This document shows, in pieces, positions 50,502-53,982 of a stretch of 64,000 nt of DNA. Origin of the DNA: Leptonema illini DSM 21528 (GTDB taxonomy: Bacteria; Spirochaetota; Leptospiria; Leptospirales; Leptonemataceae); assembly GCF_000243335.1 (NCBI RefSeq), contig NZ_JH597773.1, positions 686,489 through 750,488 on the forward strand. Direction: 5' to 3'. The first letter of the stretch is position 1, and each line of letters begins with the position of its first letter. The notes under the pieces are model-generated. The model made no database searches and was not told the DNA's origin. It worked only from the letters and a program-made list of their open reading frames with translations. The translations under genes were made by a program, and so were the position numbers.

Positions 50502-51104
50502 TTACTTCTTTATGAAACGTGCGACAAAGGCGCCGCGAAGATCATTCAGGGAGTAGCCTGTGGCCTCATCGCTCGGGTACGCCTTTTTCAGCGCCGCTGC
50601 CGTCTCGGGCTTGATCTGCTCGCCGATGCCGTGACAGCTGAGGCACATCTCGCCGCTGATCTGAATCGGAGCCATCACAACGCGACCCGTCTCTGTCGGA
50701 ACGACGACGGCTCCGATAGGCTTGCCCTCTTTCAATCGAGCCGCCCAGAGATCCAGTACCATCGATTCTACTTCGCTGGCCCTGTGCTCCGGATTGCGAG
50801 GCTTCTGAGAAACACGCAAAACCTGCGCCTCTCCTGAGAGAGACTTTTCGATTTCCGGTGAAACGACCTGACAGACCTCAATGGCCTTCTCAGGGCCGCC
50901 CTCTTTCATCGCAGCCATCAGGCGATTGGAAAGCTGCATCTTGAACTCGCCGAACTGTTTGACGATCAGGCGATCGGCTTCGTCGGCCGCCTCTCCTTTA
51001 TACTGGATGGTTTCGTATTCGGGCACTGCCTTTGCCGGCGCATCGGGCTTACAGGCGAGAAACAGTAGAGTAATGGAAAAAAACGTCAGGGATCTGAAAT
51101 ACAT
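50502..51104 (-). CDS. Tll0287-like (DUF3365) haem c lipoprotein
   Basis: 200 residues from the ATG at 51102-51104, chosen because GGAGG lies just upstream; the frame is open to 51143. Lipobox LLFLAC gives an N-terminal lipidated Cys. One c-type haem motif, CLSCHG, is near the C-terminus, after a helical sensor-like part (EVCQVVSPEIEKSL, VPTETGRVVMAPI). Tll0287-like domains occur as stand-alone periplasmic haem proteins and as sensors. A palindrome at 51118-51136 immediately precedes the RBS. Redox role inferred only. Confidence 0.85.
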   Translation of the reverse strand: MYFRSLTFFSITLLFLACKPDAPAKAVPEYETIQYKGEAADEADRLIVKQFGEFKMQLSNRLMAAMKEGGPEKAIEVCQVVSPEIEKSLSGEAQVLRVSQKPRNPEHRASEVESMVLDLWAARLKEGKPIGAVVVPTETGRVVMAPIQISGEMCLSCHGIGEQIKPETAAALKKAYPSDEATGYSLNDLRGAFVARFIKK

Positions 51105-51117
51105 GAGCAACCTCCGA

Positions 51118-51136
51118 TATACCCCTAAAGGGTATA
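51118..51136. promoter_or_regulatory. CsoR/CstR-like palindromic operator candidate
   Basis: TATACCC-CTAAA-GGGTATA is a perfect 7-bp inverted repeat. Its ATACCCC/GGGTAT form resembles the A/T-flanked G-tract operators of CsoR/CstR/RcnR-type regulators, which sense copper, reactive sulfur, nickel or formaldehyde. It lies 13 bases upstream of the haem lipoprotein start, and 85 bases from the divergent PGK-like gene. Confidence 0.5.
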
Positions 51137-51220
51137 CAATCATCTCGCGATGCAGCTGCCCTGTAAATCAAAAAAACTTACTTTGCATGATACCGTACAG
51201 GACGAATCTGCCACCCGACT

Positions 51221-52372
51221 ATGAAGCTCGCTCGAATCGATAGCCAGCCGTTACGCGGCAAAAGAGTCCTCTTACAGATTGAACTACCGCCGCCCGGCCA
51301 TCCCTTTGCCTCCTATTATTTGAACGAATGTACAGAAACCCTTGATCTTCTTCGAGAGCGAGGCGCCCACGTCCTCATTACCGGGCATCCCGTACACACG
51401 CAGCGCCCTGAGTCGGTGAGCTTCTCGGCATATACAGATGAGCTCGGTCGACGGTTGAAAAGCACCCTGCCATTCTTTGCAACGCCTGAAGATACGAAAA
51501 AGGCCGTCTCGGCCCTTGAACACGAGCCGGCCGTAATGCTTGATAATCTGCTGCATATTCAGGGTGAGGGCGGCAGCGCGAAGGCGCATGTAAAGATTCT
51601 CGCCGAAGGCATCGATTTTTTTGTGAACGAGGCGCCGGGAACGCTTGCCGACAGTTACTCAAGTTCGGTGCATATGCCCGAGTTGCGCCCGGCTTTCGCC
51701 GGCATGCGCCTTTCAGAACGTGTGGAGGCCCTGACGGAGCTTCAGGCCGGCAAACCCTCACCCTCGGTTTTTATTATGGGCGGACAGGACGTGGCCGCCT
51801 CCATCATTCTACTGAGAAAGAATCTGGCCTCGATGGACAGCCTGATCGTCGGTGGCATCGTCGCCAATACCGCTCTGAAAGGGAACGCCCTGCAGATGGG
51901 CTCCTCTGTGCTTGACGCCCCGCGTCAGTCCGACGCCTTTCAGATCATCGAGCGTGCTCGCCTCGAAGAATGCCATGTTGAACTGCCGATCGACCATATG
52001 ATCGCCGATCGCATCTCTTCAAAGGCAAAGCTGAAATCGTCGGGCCGCGAGGTTCCTGAAGGCTGGATGTCGGTGGACGTCGGCCCCAAAACCCTGTCGA
52101 ACTACGAAAAACTGCTAAAAAAAGCCGGTGTCGTCTTCATGCATGGCCCTCTTGGCGCCTCGGACGTACCTGAATTCCGGGCCGGCACAATCCGCCTGCT
52201 TAAGTTTCTCGCAAAATCAGGTGCGCGGGTCATCCTTGCAGGCGAGGATCTCTGCCATATCGCCATAGAAAACGGGATCTCGTTCCCCTTTCTTTTTCCG
52301 GACAGCCGATCGGTGCAACGTTTCCTTTCTGGCCAGGAGCTTCCCGCTCTGGCGGCCCTGAGCCCTCGATAG
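51221..52372 (+). CDS. Degenerate phosphoglycerate kinase-like protein
   Basis: 383 residues; the PGK fold is recognisable throughout (LDLLRERGAHVLITGHP, FVNEAPGTLADSYSSSVHMPEL, GWMSVDVGPKTL, VFMHGPLGASDVPEF, ARVILAGEDLCHIA). Yet nearly every active-site motif is altered: RVDFNVP is LLQIELPPP, the LRF-x-x-x-E region is MLDNLLHIQGEGG, DAFG-x-AHR is NEAPGTLADSY, GGAKV is MGGQDV, GPMGVFE is GPLGASD, and GGGDS is AGEDL. A true pgk is expected elsewhere. It precedes secG by 124 bases. It may be a pseudoenzyme or a changed-substrate kinase. In Leptospira pgk is near secG by recollection. Confidence 0.82.
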   Translation: MKLARIDSQPLRGKRVLLQIELPPPGHPFASYYLNECTETLDLLRERGAHVLITGHPVHTQRPESVSFSAYTDELGRRLKSTLPFFATPEDTKKAVSALEHEPAVMLDNLLHIQGEGGSAKAHVKILAEGIDFFVNEAPGTLADSYSSSVHMPELRPAFAGMRLSERVEALTELQAGKPSPSVFIMGGQDVAASIILLRKNLASMDSLIVGGIVANTALKGNALQMGSSVLDAPRQSDAFQIIERARLEECHVELPIDHMIADRISSKAKLKSSGREVPEGWMSVDVGPKTLSNYEKLLKKAGVVFMHGPLGASDVPEFRAGTIRLLKFLAKSGARVILAGEDLCHIAIENGISFPFLFPDSRSVQRFLSGQELPALAALSPR

Positions 52373-52496
52373 TCCGAAGCTGGCAGTCATCGCCGATCCC
52401 GTGGGAGCCGGGCATTGGCGAGAGGTTGGTTTTTCGGTTTACGTCATTCGGGCCCGGGAAAAGCATGCGAAGGATCATCGTTCGGGAGCTATTTCC

Positions 52497-52886
52497 ATGC
52501 AGATTCTGCAAACCCTGCTTGTAGTATTATTCTTTGTCAGTTGCGCAGCACTGATCTTCTTTATCCTGATTCAATCCGGTAAAGGCGGATCGCTGGGCAT
52601 TATGGGCGGTGGCGGTTCGGGCTCTCCTTTTGGAAGCTCTACCGTTGATGTCGTCGAAAAGGCAACGTGGTATGGCATCGCTGCCTTCCTTATTCTCGCC
52701 ATCCTTTCGGCCATTGCCTTTGCCGATCACGGCATCAAGATTGAGCCGATTGAGAGTGCAGTGCCCGCCGCGGAAGAGAGCGCTCCGGCGCAGAGTTTGC
52801 CGGCAAACCCCGCTCCGGCACAGAATACGCCGGTTCAACCTGCTCCGGCTCAGAATCTGCCGGCCAATCCGACGCCAGCTCAGTAA
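52497..52886 (+). CDS. secG: SecG protein-export membrane subunit with Pro/Ala/Gln repeat tail
   Basis: 129 residues from ATG at 52497-52499, where homology starts (MQILQTLLVVLFFVSCAALIF). SecG is the small stimulatory subunit of the SecYEG channel. Two membrane helices flank the conserved loop (ILIQSGKGGSLGIMGGGGSG, then FGSSTVDVVEKATWYGIAAFLIL). Unlike most SecG, there is a tail of about 40 residues with a ten-residue Pro/Ala/Gln/Asn repeat (PAQSLPANPA, PAQNTPVQPA, PAQNLPANPT). A terminator follows. Confidence 0.92.
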   Translation: MQILQTLLVVLFFVSCAALIFFILIQSGKGGSLGIMGGGGSGSPFGSSTVDVVEKATWYGIAAFLILAILSAIAFADHGIKIEPIESAVPAAEESAPAQSLPANPAPAQNTPVQPAPAQNLPANPTPAQ

Positions 52887-52907
52887 AAGCCAGCGAATGT
52901 CGCAGAG

Positions 52908-52929
52908 ACCCGCTCCGGCGGGTTTTTTT
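52908..52929 (+). terminator. Rho-independent terminator after secG
   Basis: ACCCGC / GCGGGT stem with loop TCCG, followed by seven T. It ends the pgk-like/secG transcript. Confidence 0.92.
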
Positions 52930-52995
52930 ATGCCTTTCTCGCGTACGACCGTCTGCTTTTTTTAGTTGCGGGATGTGTTTTTTTCGGCAATACAG

Positions 52996-53024
52996 TAAAT
53001 TCAGCGATCGCGATTTCCTATAAT
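52996..53024 (+). promoter_or_regulatory. Promoter candidate for the FcpA-like gene
   Basis: A perfect -10 hexamer TATAAT at 53019-53024 lies 38 bases before the start codon. TAAA at 52996-52999 with TCCTATAA at 53016-53023 partly fits the flagellar sigma-28 pattern (TAAA, then GCCGATAA), but the gap is one base too long. No clear sigma-70 -35 box is visible. Confidence 0.5.
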
Positions 53025-53061
53025 GATACAAAGACTCAGGTTATTACAGGGACGGAAGACT

Positions 53062-53982
53062 ATGAAACGGATTTTCACCACCACAGCGGGAGCACTGGCA
53101 GTATCCCTGTTCGCAGGCGCTCTGATTGCAAAACCCAAAATCATCGACCGTGAAGCAGAGAAAAAGGCCTACCCTGATCTGCAAACCACGGAAAGCATCC
53201 TTGATCGCAATGTTACCGAAGCCTACAAGCGCCTAGCCCTGTTTGGCCCGCTTGTGAACATGGCTAAAGAAGACCGAGACAAGTATTTCAAAGAGCGTCA
53301 GGATCCGCTCGATTTCCGTCATACGCTTAAGAACATCGTCTATACTCCTCGCAACACCTATGTGCGTTACGTCAAGGAAGGAGCGGATTTTCTGCTTGTA
53401 GGCCTCGGCGATACGGCAGAGACACAGGCCAAGATCAGCGAAAAAACGGCCGAAGCGAACAACGCCGGTGTTCAGGTTCCTGCCCTTGCCTTTCAGGATC
53501 GTGAAGGCATCGAACTGACGCAGTTCGAGTTCATCTACGCCGAAGACGAACCCATTCGGGAAGCGATCGGTTCGCGCCGCAAGTCCGTCAGCCTCTTCTA
53601 TAAAAGAACGGGTCAGGGCAACGTCGACACCGAGCAGGATTTTACGCTCGACCTCGTCGTAACTCGCATCGTTCACGATAACTTCAAAAAAGGCGTAAAA
53701 GACATCGAAGTCGTTATCGATCCGAGTCCGATGACCGAGGCCATGGACGATATCATCATCCTGCACCGCTACAATCAGAAGCCCTCCCAGGCGATCGTCG
53801 TGGGCACGATGCCGAACACGCCTAATTTCCCGCAGCGGAATCAGTTCAAGCAGAAATTCTATACGAAGCTGCTCGATCATTACAACATTCTGTATCGTCT
53901 GCTCGACGGTTATGCGAAGAAGGATGGCAACTCGTACAACGATACCGTCCTCGAACTTCTGCGAAAAAGCACGGAATACTGA
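53062..53982 (+). CDS. Secreted FcpA-like flagellar-coiling protein (candidate)
   Basis: 306 residues from the ATG at 53062, with GGAAG upstream and a signal peptide (RIFTTTAGALAVSLFAGALIA). The mature part is charged and largely helical (DREAEKKAYPDLQTTESIL, RNTYVRYVKEGADFLLVGLG, DHYNILYRLLDGYAKKDG) without known enzyme motifs. Size, signal peptide, lack of other domains and spirochaete context resemble the Leptospira flagellar-coiling protein FcpA, which sheaths the periplasmic filament. I rate the name as a recollection-based guess. Strong promoter-like -10 and a terminator suggest high expression from a monocistron. Confidence 0.6.
   Translation: MKRIFTTTAGALAVSLFAGALIAKPKIIDREAEKKAYPDLQTTESILDRNVTEAYKRLALFGPLVNMAKEDRDKYFKERQDPLDFRHTLKNIVYTPRNTYVRYVKEGADFLLVGLGDTAETQAKISEKTAEANNAGVQVPALAFQDREGIELTQFEFIYAEDEPIREAIGSRRKSVSLFYKRTGQGNVDTEQDFTLDLVVTRIVHDNFKKGVKDIEVVIDPSPMTEAMDDIIILHRYNQKPSQAIVVGTMPNTPNFPQRNQFKQKFYTKLLDHYNILYRLLDGYAKKDGNSYNDTVLELLRKSTEY

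Follow-up and report, generated by a model that had tools for sequence, protein, structure and literature searches.

The window analysed here is a stretch of 64,000 nucleotides from the genome of Leptonema illini DSM 21528. The locus under study comprises three genes on the forward strand:

51221..52372, + strand: degenerate phosphoglycerate kinase (PGK) gene, 383 amino acids, stop codon included in the coordinates
52497..52886, + strand: secG (PF03840), 124 bases downstream of the degenerate pgk on the same strand, start codon picked by homology
53023..53982, + strand: conserved gene with no match in Pfam; it adjoins secG in each of the 13 family loci with secG after the degenerate pgk

The reading frame of the first gene is unbroken from its ATG start to its TAG stop codon, and its codon-position GC content (0.64/0.43/0.63) resembles that of the adjacent genes. 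The sole Pfam match of the protein is the PGK family PF00162, to which it belongs with 191 bits over residues 9-352 at a curated cut-off of 27. A chance or artefactual reading frame is ruled out by this match, by the coding-like base composition and by open relatives in 17 further genomes. The single NCBIfam match was the bifunctional PGK/TPI model NF010569, of which the protein is no member: residues 6-380 align with profile positions 6-391 of 645, and the score of 152.8 bits lies far under the cut-off of 883. A product name taken over from this model would be wrong for the gene.

An AlphaFold2 model calculated from a 24-row alignment had a mean pLDDT of 92.5 and a pTM of 0.90. It was compared with known structures by Foldseek as well as by a Z-scored PDB comparison. 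All 50 PDB matches shown were PGKs, and the top match 3q3v_A (Z 46.1) superimposed with an rmsd of 2.2 over 376 residues at 23% identity. The protein is thus predicted to adopt the complete two-domain PGK fold. This prediction and the Pfam score agree with the initial annotation of the locus, in which the overall PGK layout had been described as kept.

For a comparison of the active site, 33 canonical PGKs of the same phylum were aligned with the window copy. Residue numbers of the pig/human PGK were carried across by motif, and the places of the PGK motifs in the window copy are the following:

51269..51295, + strand: place of LIRVDFNVP, residues 17-25; Arg21 is Gln19, Asp23 is Glu21, Asn25 is Pro23
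51317..51319, + strand: place of the catalytic Arg38; residue 33 is Tyr
51386..51406, + strand: place of SHLGRP, residues 56-62; His62 is kept as His56, Arg65 is unsure
51542..51556, + strand: place of ENIRF, residues 108-112; Arg122 is Leu111
51632..51664, + strand: place of AFGTAHRAHAS, residues 138-148; His is Ala143, Arg170 is Asp144
51779..51802, + strand: place of GGAKxSxK, residues 187-194; Lys215 is Asp190, Lys219 is Ser194, Gly-Gly is kept
52142..52165, + strand: place of NGPMGVFE, residues 308-315; Asn336 is His308, the ribose-binding acid is kept as Asp315
52235..52252, + strand: place of GGGDS, residues 339-344; AGEDL, the Mg-ligand Asp is kept as Asp343
52295..52312, + strand: place of STGGGA, residues 359-364; FPDSRS

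Five of these motifs had been listed as changed in the initial annotation. All five proved to be altered in the alignment with canonical PGKs: RVDFNVP to QIELPPP, LRF to LLH, GTAHR to GTLAD, GGAKV to GGQDV and GGGDS to AGEDL, the last retaining the middle Gly and the Asp of GGGD. Arg38 of DxxRI (Tyr), Asn336 of WNGPMG (His) and the STGGGA loop (FPDSRS) extend the list. The 33 canonical PGKs of the phylum keep these residues with single exceptions, for example Asp374 to Glu in one genome (G005).

Arg38, Lys215 and Lys219 are catalytic in PGK. The window copy lacks the residues of an EC 2.7.2.3 enzyme both at Arg38 (Tyr) and at the phosphate-handling positions Lys215, Lys219, Asn336 and GGGD[ST] (Asp, Ser, His and AGEDL). 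The 3-phosphoglycerate (3PG) ligands are Asp23, Asn25, His62, Arg65, Arg122 and Arg170 according to section 3.1 of PMC7729029, and that paper also gives the Mg role of the GGGD Asp. This ligand set is likewise not that of the enzyme: Asp23 is Glu, Asn25 Pro, Arg122 Leu and Arg170 Asp, His62 is kept, and the equivalent of Arg65 depends on the alignment, being Arg62 in the multiple alignment and His59 in that of HMMER. The ADP contacts of Bacillus stearothermophilus PGK, as given in the same section of PMC7729029, were read off the HMMER alignment by hand. Identity or a conservative exchange was seen at Val230 and Ala313, which flank the adenine, at Asp315 (ribose acid) and at Asp343 (Mg ligand); the phosphate-contacting Lys, Asn and Ser and a Tyr near the adenine are lost. 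Since Lys219 and the phosphate-touching Asn and Ser are gone, nucleotide binding is doubtful for the window copy in particular.

The initial annotation had offered two alternatives, namely a pseudoenzyme or neofunctionalised copy with the true PGK elsewhere, or a heavily diverged PGK of the whole lineage, and had proposed a genome search for a canonical pgk. The L. illini genome (4.52 Mb, 3 contigs, 95% complete) contains two PF00162 matches, both on one 4.3-Mb contig: C1:2429078-2430217 with 500.6 bits and, 1.69 Mb away, the window copy with 190.8 bits. The former has every motif intact and starts 90 bases after gap. The gap gene (PF02800) and tpi (PF00121) each gave one match genome-wide, tpi being distant from both pgk genes. 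Consequently, the first alternative is supported by the gene content of the genome, and a diverged PGK as the only PGK of the lineage is rejected for the window's genome. With a canonical pgk in the same genome the window copy need not serve glycolysis. The two PGKs share 26% identity (98.6 bits). The window copy matches the best PGKs of the sister family, which we take to be the Leptospiraceae, at 32% identity and 193 bits, although the canonical copy evolves slower.

A PF00162 profile search covered 30 genomes of the order, 22 from the window's family (the window's genome included; most of them draft assemblies) and eight from the sister family. Canonical and degenerate pgk occur together in 17 of the 22 family genomes; contig ends cut the degenerate copy of G019 and the canonical copy of G021. 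In two genomes (G004 and G007, assemblies 78 and 81% complete) no PGK but the degenerate copy was found, which may be their only one. The canonical copy was found alone in G014 (92% complete) and, as a contig-end fragment, in G008 (67% complete), and neither copy was found in G009 (0.9 Mb, 76% complete). When these three genomes were queried with the degenerate protein of a relative, just the canonical genes were found in G014 and G008 and nothing in G009. Apparently, G014 lost the degenerate gene, which is thus probably dispensable. G014 is the fourth genome of the genus to which G020, G002 and G017 belong. A scan of named genomes with two peptide patterns yielded at least six degenerate copies (L096-L101) among the best 80 of 246 relatives, all in metagenome assemblies; they correspond to the copies of G021, G001, G004, G016, G011 and G013 already counted.

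The residue losses extend over the family. In the 18 near-complete degenerate copies, from which the contig-cut copy of G019 was left out, Lys215, Arg170 and Asn25 are never kept; Asn336, Arg122 and Arg65 are kept once each (Arg65 in the window copy, where it is unsure) and Arg38 twice. His62 is present in 10 of the 18, the Mg ligand Asp374 and Lys219 in 13 each, and Asp23 and the ribose acid Glu343 in 14 each. The former active site differs strongly between genera. Canonical PGKs show at least 95% identity in 78 columns. In the degenerate group 59 of these drop below 80%. The other 19 comprise one of the 26 columns in the N-domain (residues 1-165 of the window copy) and 18 of the 52 beyond it; poor N-domain alignment of G002, G017 and G020 overstates the N-domain loss. 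In these three copies (L047, L049 and L046, respectively) the C-domain aligns with PGK and the N-domain barely does.

The gene order around the degenerate copy was compared as well. By its PF03840 match the downstream neighbour is indeed secG, as the initial annotation had stated, and no terminator-like site was found within positions 51000-53100. secG lies directly downstream of the degenerate pgk in 13 of 19 family loci. In each of these 13 the Pfam-less gene comes next, and nine of them also contain a histidine kinase and a response regulator. The N-terminus of the Pfam-less protein (53023-53982) resembles a signal peptide by eye, and a weak match to it exists in G024 of the sister family. 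Among the other six loci, one ends at a contig edge (G019), one has none of the sought neighbours (G012), and in G010 secG and its block lie 5.8 kb away in inverted orientation. The remaining three (G002, G017, G020) keep the neighbours of the other flank, HemH and a Tll0287-like gene, and have no credible secG match. SecG of relatives used as query gave no match in G012, G017, G019 and G020 and in G002 a 17-residue match at chance level (E 0.9); the same query matched six of the eight sister-family genomes, the SecG of the window three.

The canonical copy adjoins gap in 16 of 19 family loci, with no gap match at G006, G008 and G012. In the sister family the native pgk lies within gap-pgk-tpi in eight of eight genomes, one of these genes (G027) being inferred from two pieces split across contigs, and secG comes next in six of eight; no secG match was obtained in G023 and G028. 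This bears out, for the sister family, the statement in the initial annotation that Leptospira has its pgk region at secG. From the order gap-pgk-tpi(-secG) in the sister family it follows that the secG-linked gene sits in the ancestral place and that gap and tpi moved away. The histidine kinase and response regulator genes nearby were not read as a clue to the function of the degenerate copy, as the same order surrounds an intact pgk in G024.

The descent of both copies was followed in two trees. A quick tree of 55 of the 62 rows, from which seven fragments or odd rows were dropped, grouped the degenerate copies with the native copies of the sister family (support 97); it contained several long rows, and its midpoint root fell inside the degenerate copies. 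A careful tree was calculated from 54 PGKs including 11 from other phyla. It left out 19 of the 62 rows: the same seven, the longest or oddest degenerate copies (G010, G005, G017, G020, G002, G012) and six near-duplicates. Here the nine remaining degenerate copies formed one clade (100/100). The sister family's native PGKs grouped with this clade (99/99), and a wider group (100/99) took in PGKs from other families of the class. The 14 gap-linked copies constituted a separate clade outside that group (100/98). The outgroup did not fall on one side of a branch, so the deep root of this tree is not firm. The branch of the window copy is long, 1.61 compared with 0.35 for the canonical copy. For the wider quick tree, a topology in which degenerate and gap-linked copies form one clade was rejected (p-AU 0.002). 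This value and the position in the careful tree rule out that the degenerate copy arose from the canonical one by recent duplication.

The best reading of tree, synteny and gene content is that a PGK of separate origin took over from the native gene, which stayed in the genome. The altered copy would thus have been inherited and the canonical one would have replaced it, a reading absent from the initial annotation. The gap-linked pgk appears foreign by its place among the rows of the careful tree, in which no donor was found. Whether gap came in from outside too was addressed by a topology test, which neither showed nor rejected one clade.

A comparable loss of residues was observed in the sister family. 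The pgk that gap and tpi flank in G025 and G028 no longer has Arg122, Arg170 (now Lys), Asn336 or the third Gly of GGGD. G025 retains both Lys215 and Lys219, and G028 has Arg at each of these positions. Both genes retain gap and tpi and form one clade (100/98). The careful tree did not resolve the fork that joins them, four intact native copies and the main degenerate group. Judged from their family membership and their different changes, G025 and G028 probably represent a second, independent decay of a native pgk. G025 contains an additional PGK elsewhere, with a close relative in G029; in G028 (75% complete) the PF00162 search found no second PGK. The additional PGKs of G025 and G029 (L069, L070) carry SHLGDP in place of SHLGRP (Arg65 to Asp) and form a clade of their own. 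In another spirochete family (G050; also G083, G102 and G108) two to three PGK matches per genome were found. Of the G050 proteins (L090, L091, L092) one is short (168-residue frame) and one has a changed GGAK, both holding masked stretches; this multiplicity could be another PGK replacement.

All 18 near-complete degenerate copies are open without an internal stop codon. For the degenerate copies of relatives, dN/dS was 0.043-0.181 in those seven of eight genome pairs that gave a finite value; these ratios are rough, since the synonymous differences of 0.61-0.77 per site are near saturation, and they were obtained from pairs of relatives, the window copy itself sitting on a long branch. The canonical copies gave 0.025-0.086 in the four finite cases of eight pairs. 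Unconstrained sequences would not remain open and 59-92% identical, as the degenerate copies in those pairs are, at such a saturation. This indicates that the degenerate protein is kept by purifying selection.

The conservation pattern of the two copies differs. Mean identity between genomes (106 pairs) was 33% for the degenerate and 56% for the canonical copies. The C-domain was better conserved than the N-domain in 100 of 105 degenerate pairs (mean 39% versus 27%) and in 73 of 105 canonical pairs (58% versus 54%). The C-terminal tail is the best-kept part of the canonical copies (70%) and the worst-kept part of the degenerate ones (24%). By these comparisons the nucleotide domain decays slower than the substrate domain. 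A kept C-domain and a lost tail are expected of a protein that no longer works by catalytic domain closure and retains a function in its nucleotide-domain core; a purely structural role of this core would give the same pattern.

From these observations we consider it probable that the window gene is a displaced native PGK, retained as a non-catalytic, partner-binding pseudoenzyme after a replacement beside gap. The gene would be the family's own vertically inherited PGK, whose glycolytic job passed in the family ancestor to a PGK of separate origin beside gap, as tree, synteny and gene content suggest. The old copy would have stayed upstream of secG and lost the closing loop, most of its 3PG site and the catalytic residues Arg38 and Lys215. 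Judging from its residues the protein is not expected to catalyse the PGK reaction; the selection measured in relatives suggests that it is still being maintained. Its role may be that of a folded two-lobed body, best kept in the nucleotide-domain core, which would bind a partner and perhaps still an adenine nucleotide. Retention of the altered copy at the old place under selection suggests a job other than catalysis. Going further, and tentatively, one might imagine a pseudo-PGK family born at the takeover by a foreign PGK, and probably again in two sister-family genomes, that now acts as an adenine-nucleotide-responsive regulator or scaffold, for example by binding the new PGK or GAPDH and thereby tuning gluconeogenic flux; we regard this extension as rather doubtful.

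A pseudoenzyme is understood here as an enzyme homologue whose catalytic residues are gone and which is kept by selection. The residues correspond to this description, selection is seen in relatives, and inactivity is deduced. The alternative that the PGK scaffold works as a neofunctionalised kinase or phosphotransferase on another substrate is consistent with purifying selection in relatives and with the frequent retention of Asp374, Lys219 and Glu343. However, Lys215 is lost in 18 of 18 copies and Asn336 in 17 of 18, and the old patch has not been replaced by a new common set of charged residues. By our criterion just two columns, Arg5 and Leu248, are newly conserved, and Arg5 is already found in four of five native PGKs of the sister family. 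The strong unlikeness of the genera at the former active site also argues against a new enzyme, which we regard as unlikely. Thus, the open choice between pseudoenzyme and neofunctionalised copy in the initial annotation leans, on sequence evidence, to the pseudoenzyme, because of the residue losses and the lack of a new conserved set.

The displaced native gene could also be a relic on its way to loss that is temporarily retained because it lies within the transcript of secG. Its shared direction with secG, no terminator-like site having been found in that region, its apparent absence from G014, the strongly decayed N-domain in G002, G017 and G020 and the fast branch of the window copy are consistent with this. 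Yet all 18 near-complete copies lack an internal stop at near-saturated synonymous divergence, dN/dS is far below 1, the fold is kept in the model, and the copies without secG directly downstream (G010, G012, G002, G017, G020) are open too, so that a passing relic is quite improbable. A still-active diverged PGK isozyme, compatible with the full predicted fold and the PF00162 score above the cut-off, is scarcely credible given the replacement of Asn25, Arg122, Arg170, Arg38, Lys215, Lys219 and Asn336 and the canonical copy in the genome.

PGK is highly conserved and most genomes hold one. Most members of this family would keep their displaced original PGK as a dead protein, usually at the old place, with the replacement elsewhere in the genome, and intact sister lineages allow a comparison. 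Together they give a natural series, from active through partly decayed native genes to fully decayed and finally missing copies, with which one can ask what non-catalytic work a glycolytic enzyme does and why a displaced gene stays. Annotation on PGK similarity alone would count two PGKs in these genomes. Our literature search, outside which most subscription papers lay, yielded no description of a second PGK in either Leptonema or Leptospira, nor of any bacterial pseudo-PGK.

Bacterial PGKs of PF00162 with solved structures (3q3v, 1php, 1vpe) share the whole predicted fold, the domain order and the length of the window protein at 23-26% identity over 376-380 aligned residues; the window protein departs from them by having other residues over most of the substrate patch, at the phosphate-handling positions and in the STGGGA loop. 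Its nearest relatives by tree, which also occupy the same genomic place, are the native PGKs of the sister family (L073-L077). Unlike the degenerate copy, these keep the tabulated catalytic residues and still have gap and tpi adjacent. Outside the bacteria, the PGKL proteins of Trypanosoma and Bodo are described in PMC4106842 and PMC7729029 as containing a PGK domain without substrate-binding and catalytic residues that is predicted to be dead. As with the window protein, this dead domain occurs in organisms with other PGKs. For a related T. congolense protein PMC7729029 reports that the 1,3BPGA site is gone and nucleotide-binding residues are kept. T. brucei PGKL carries cyclic-nucleotide-binding and HTH domains after the PGK domain, has predicted membrane helices and is associated with the flagellar axoneme, according to PMC4106842. 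The window protein, with 383 residues and PGK as its only Pfam match, does not have the PGKL layout given there: it consists of the PGK fold alone, has the size of a bacterial PGK and lies at the ancestral bacterial locus. The two are likened here by their descriptions. By this analogy, trypanosome PGKL would be the nearest precedent known to us for a degenerate PGK.
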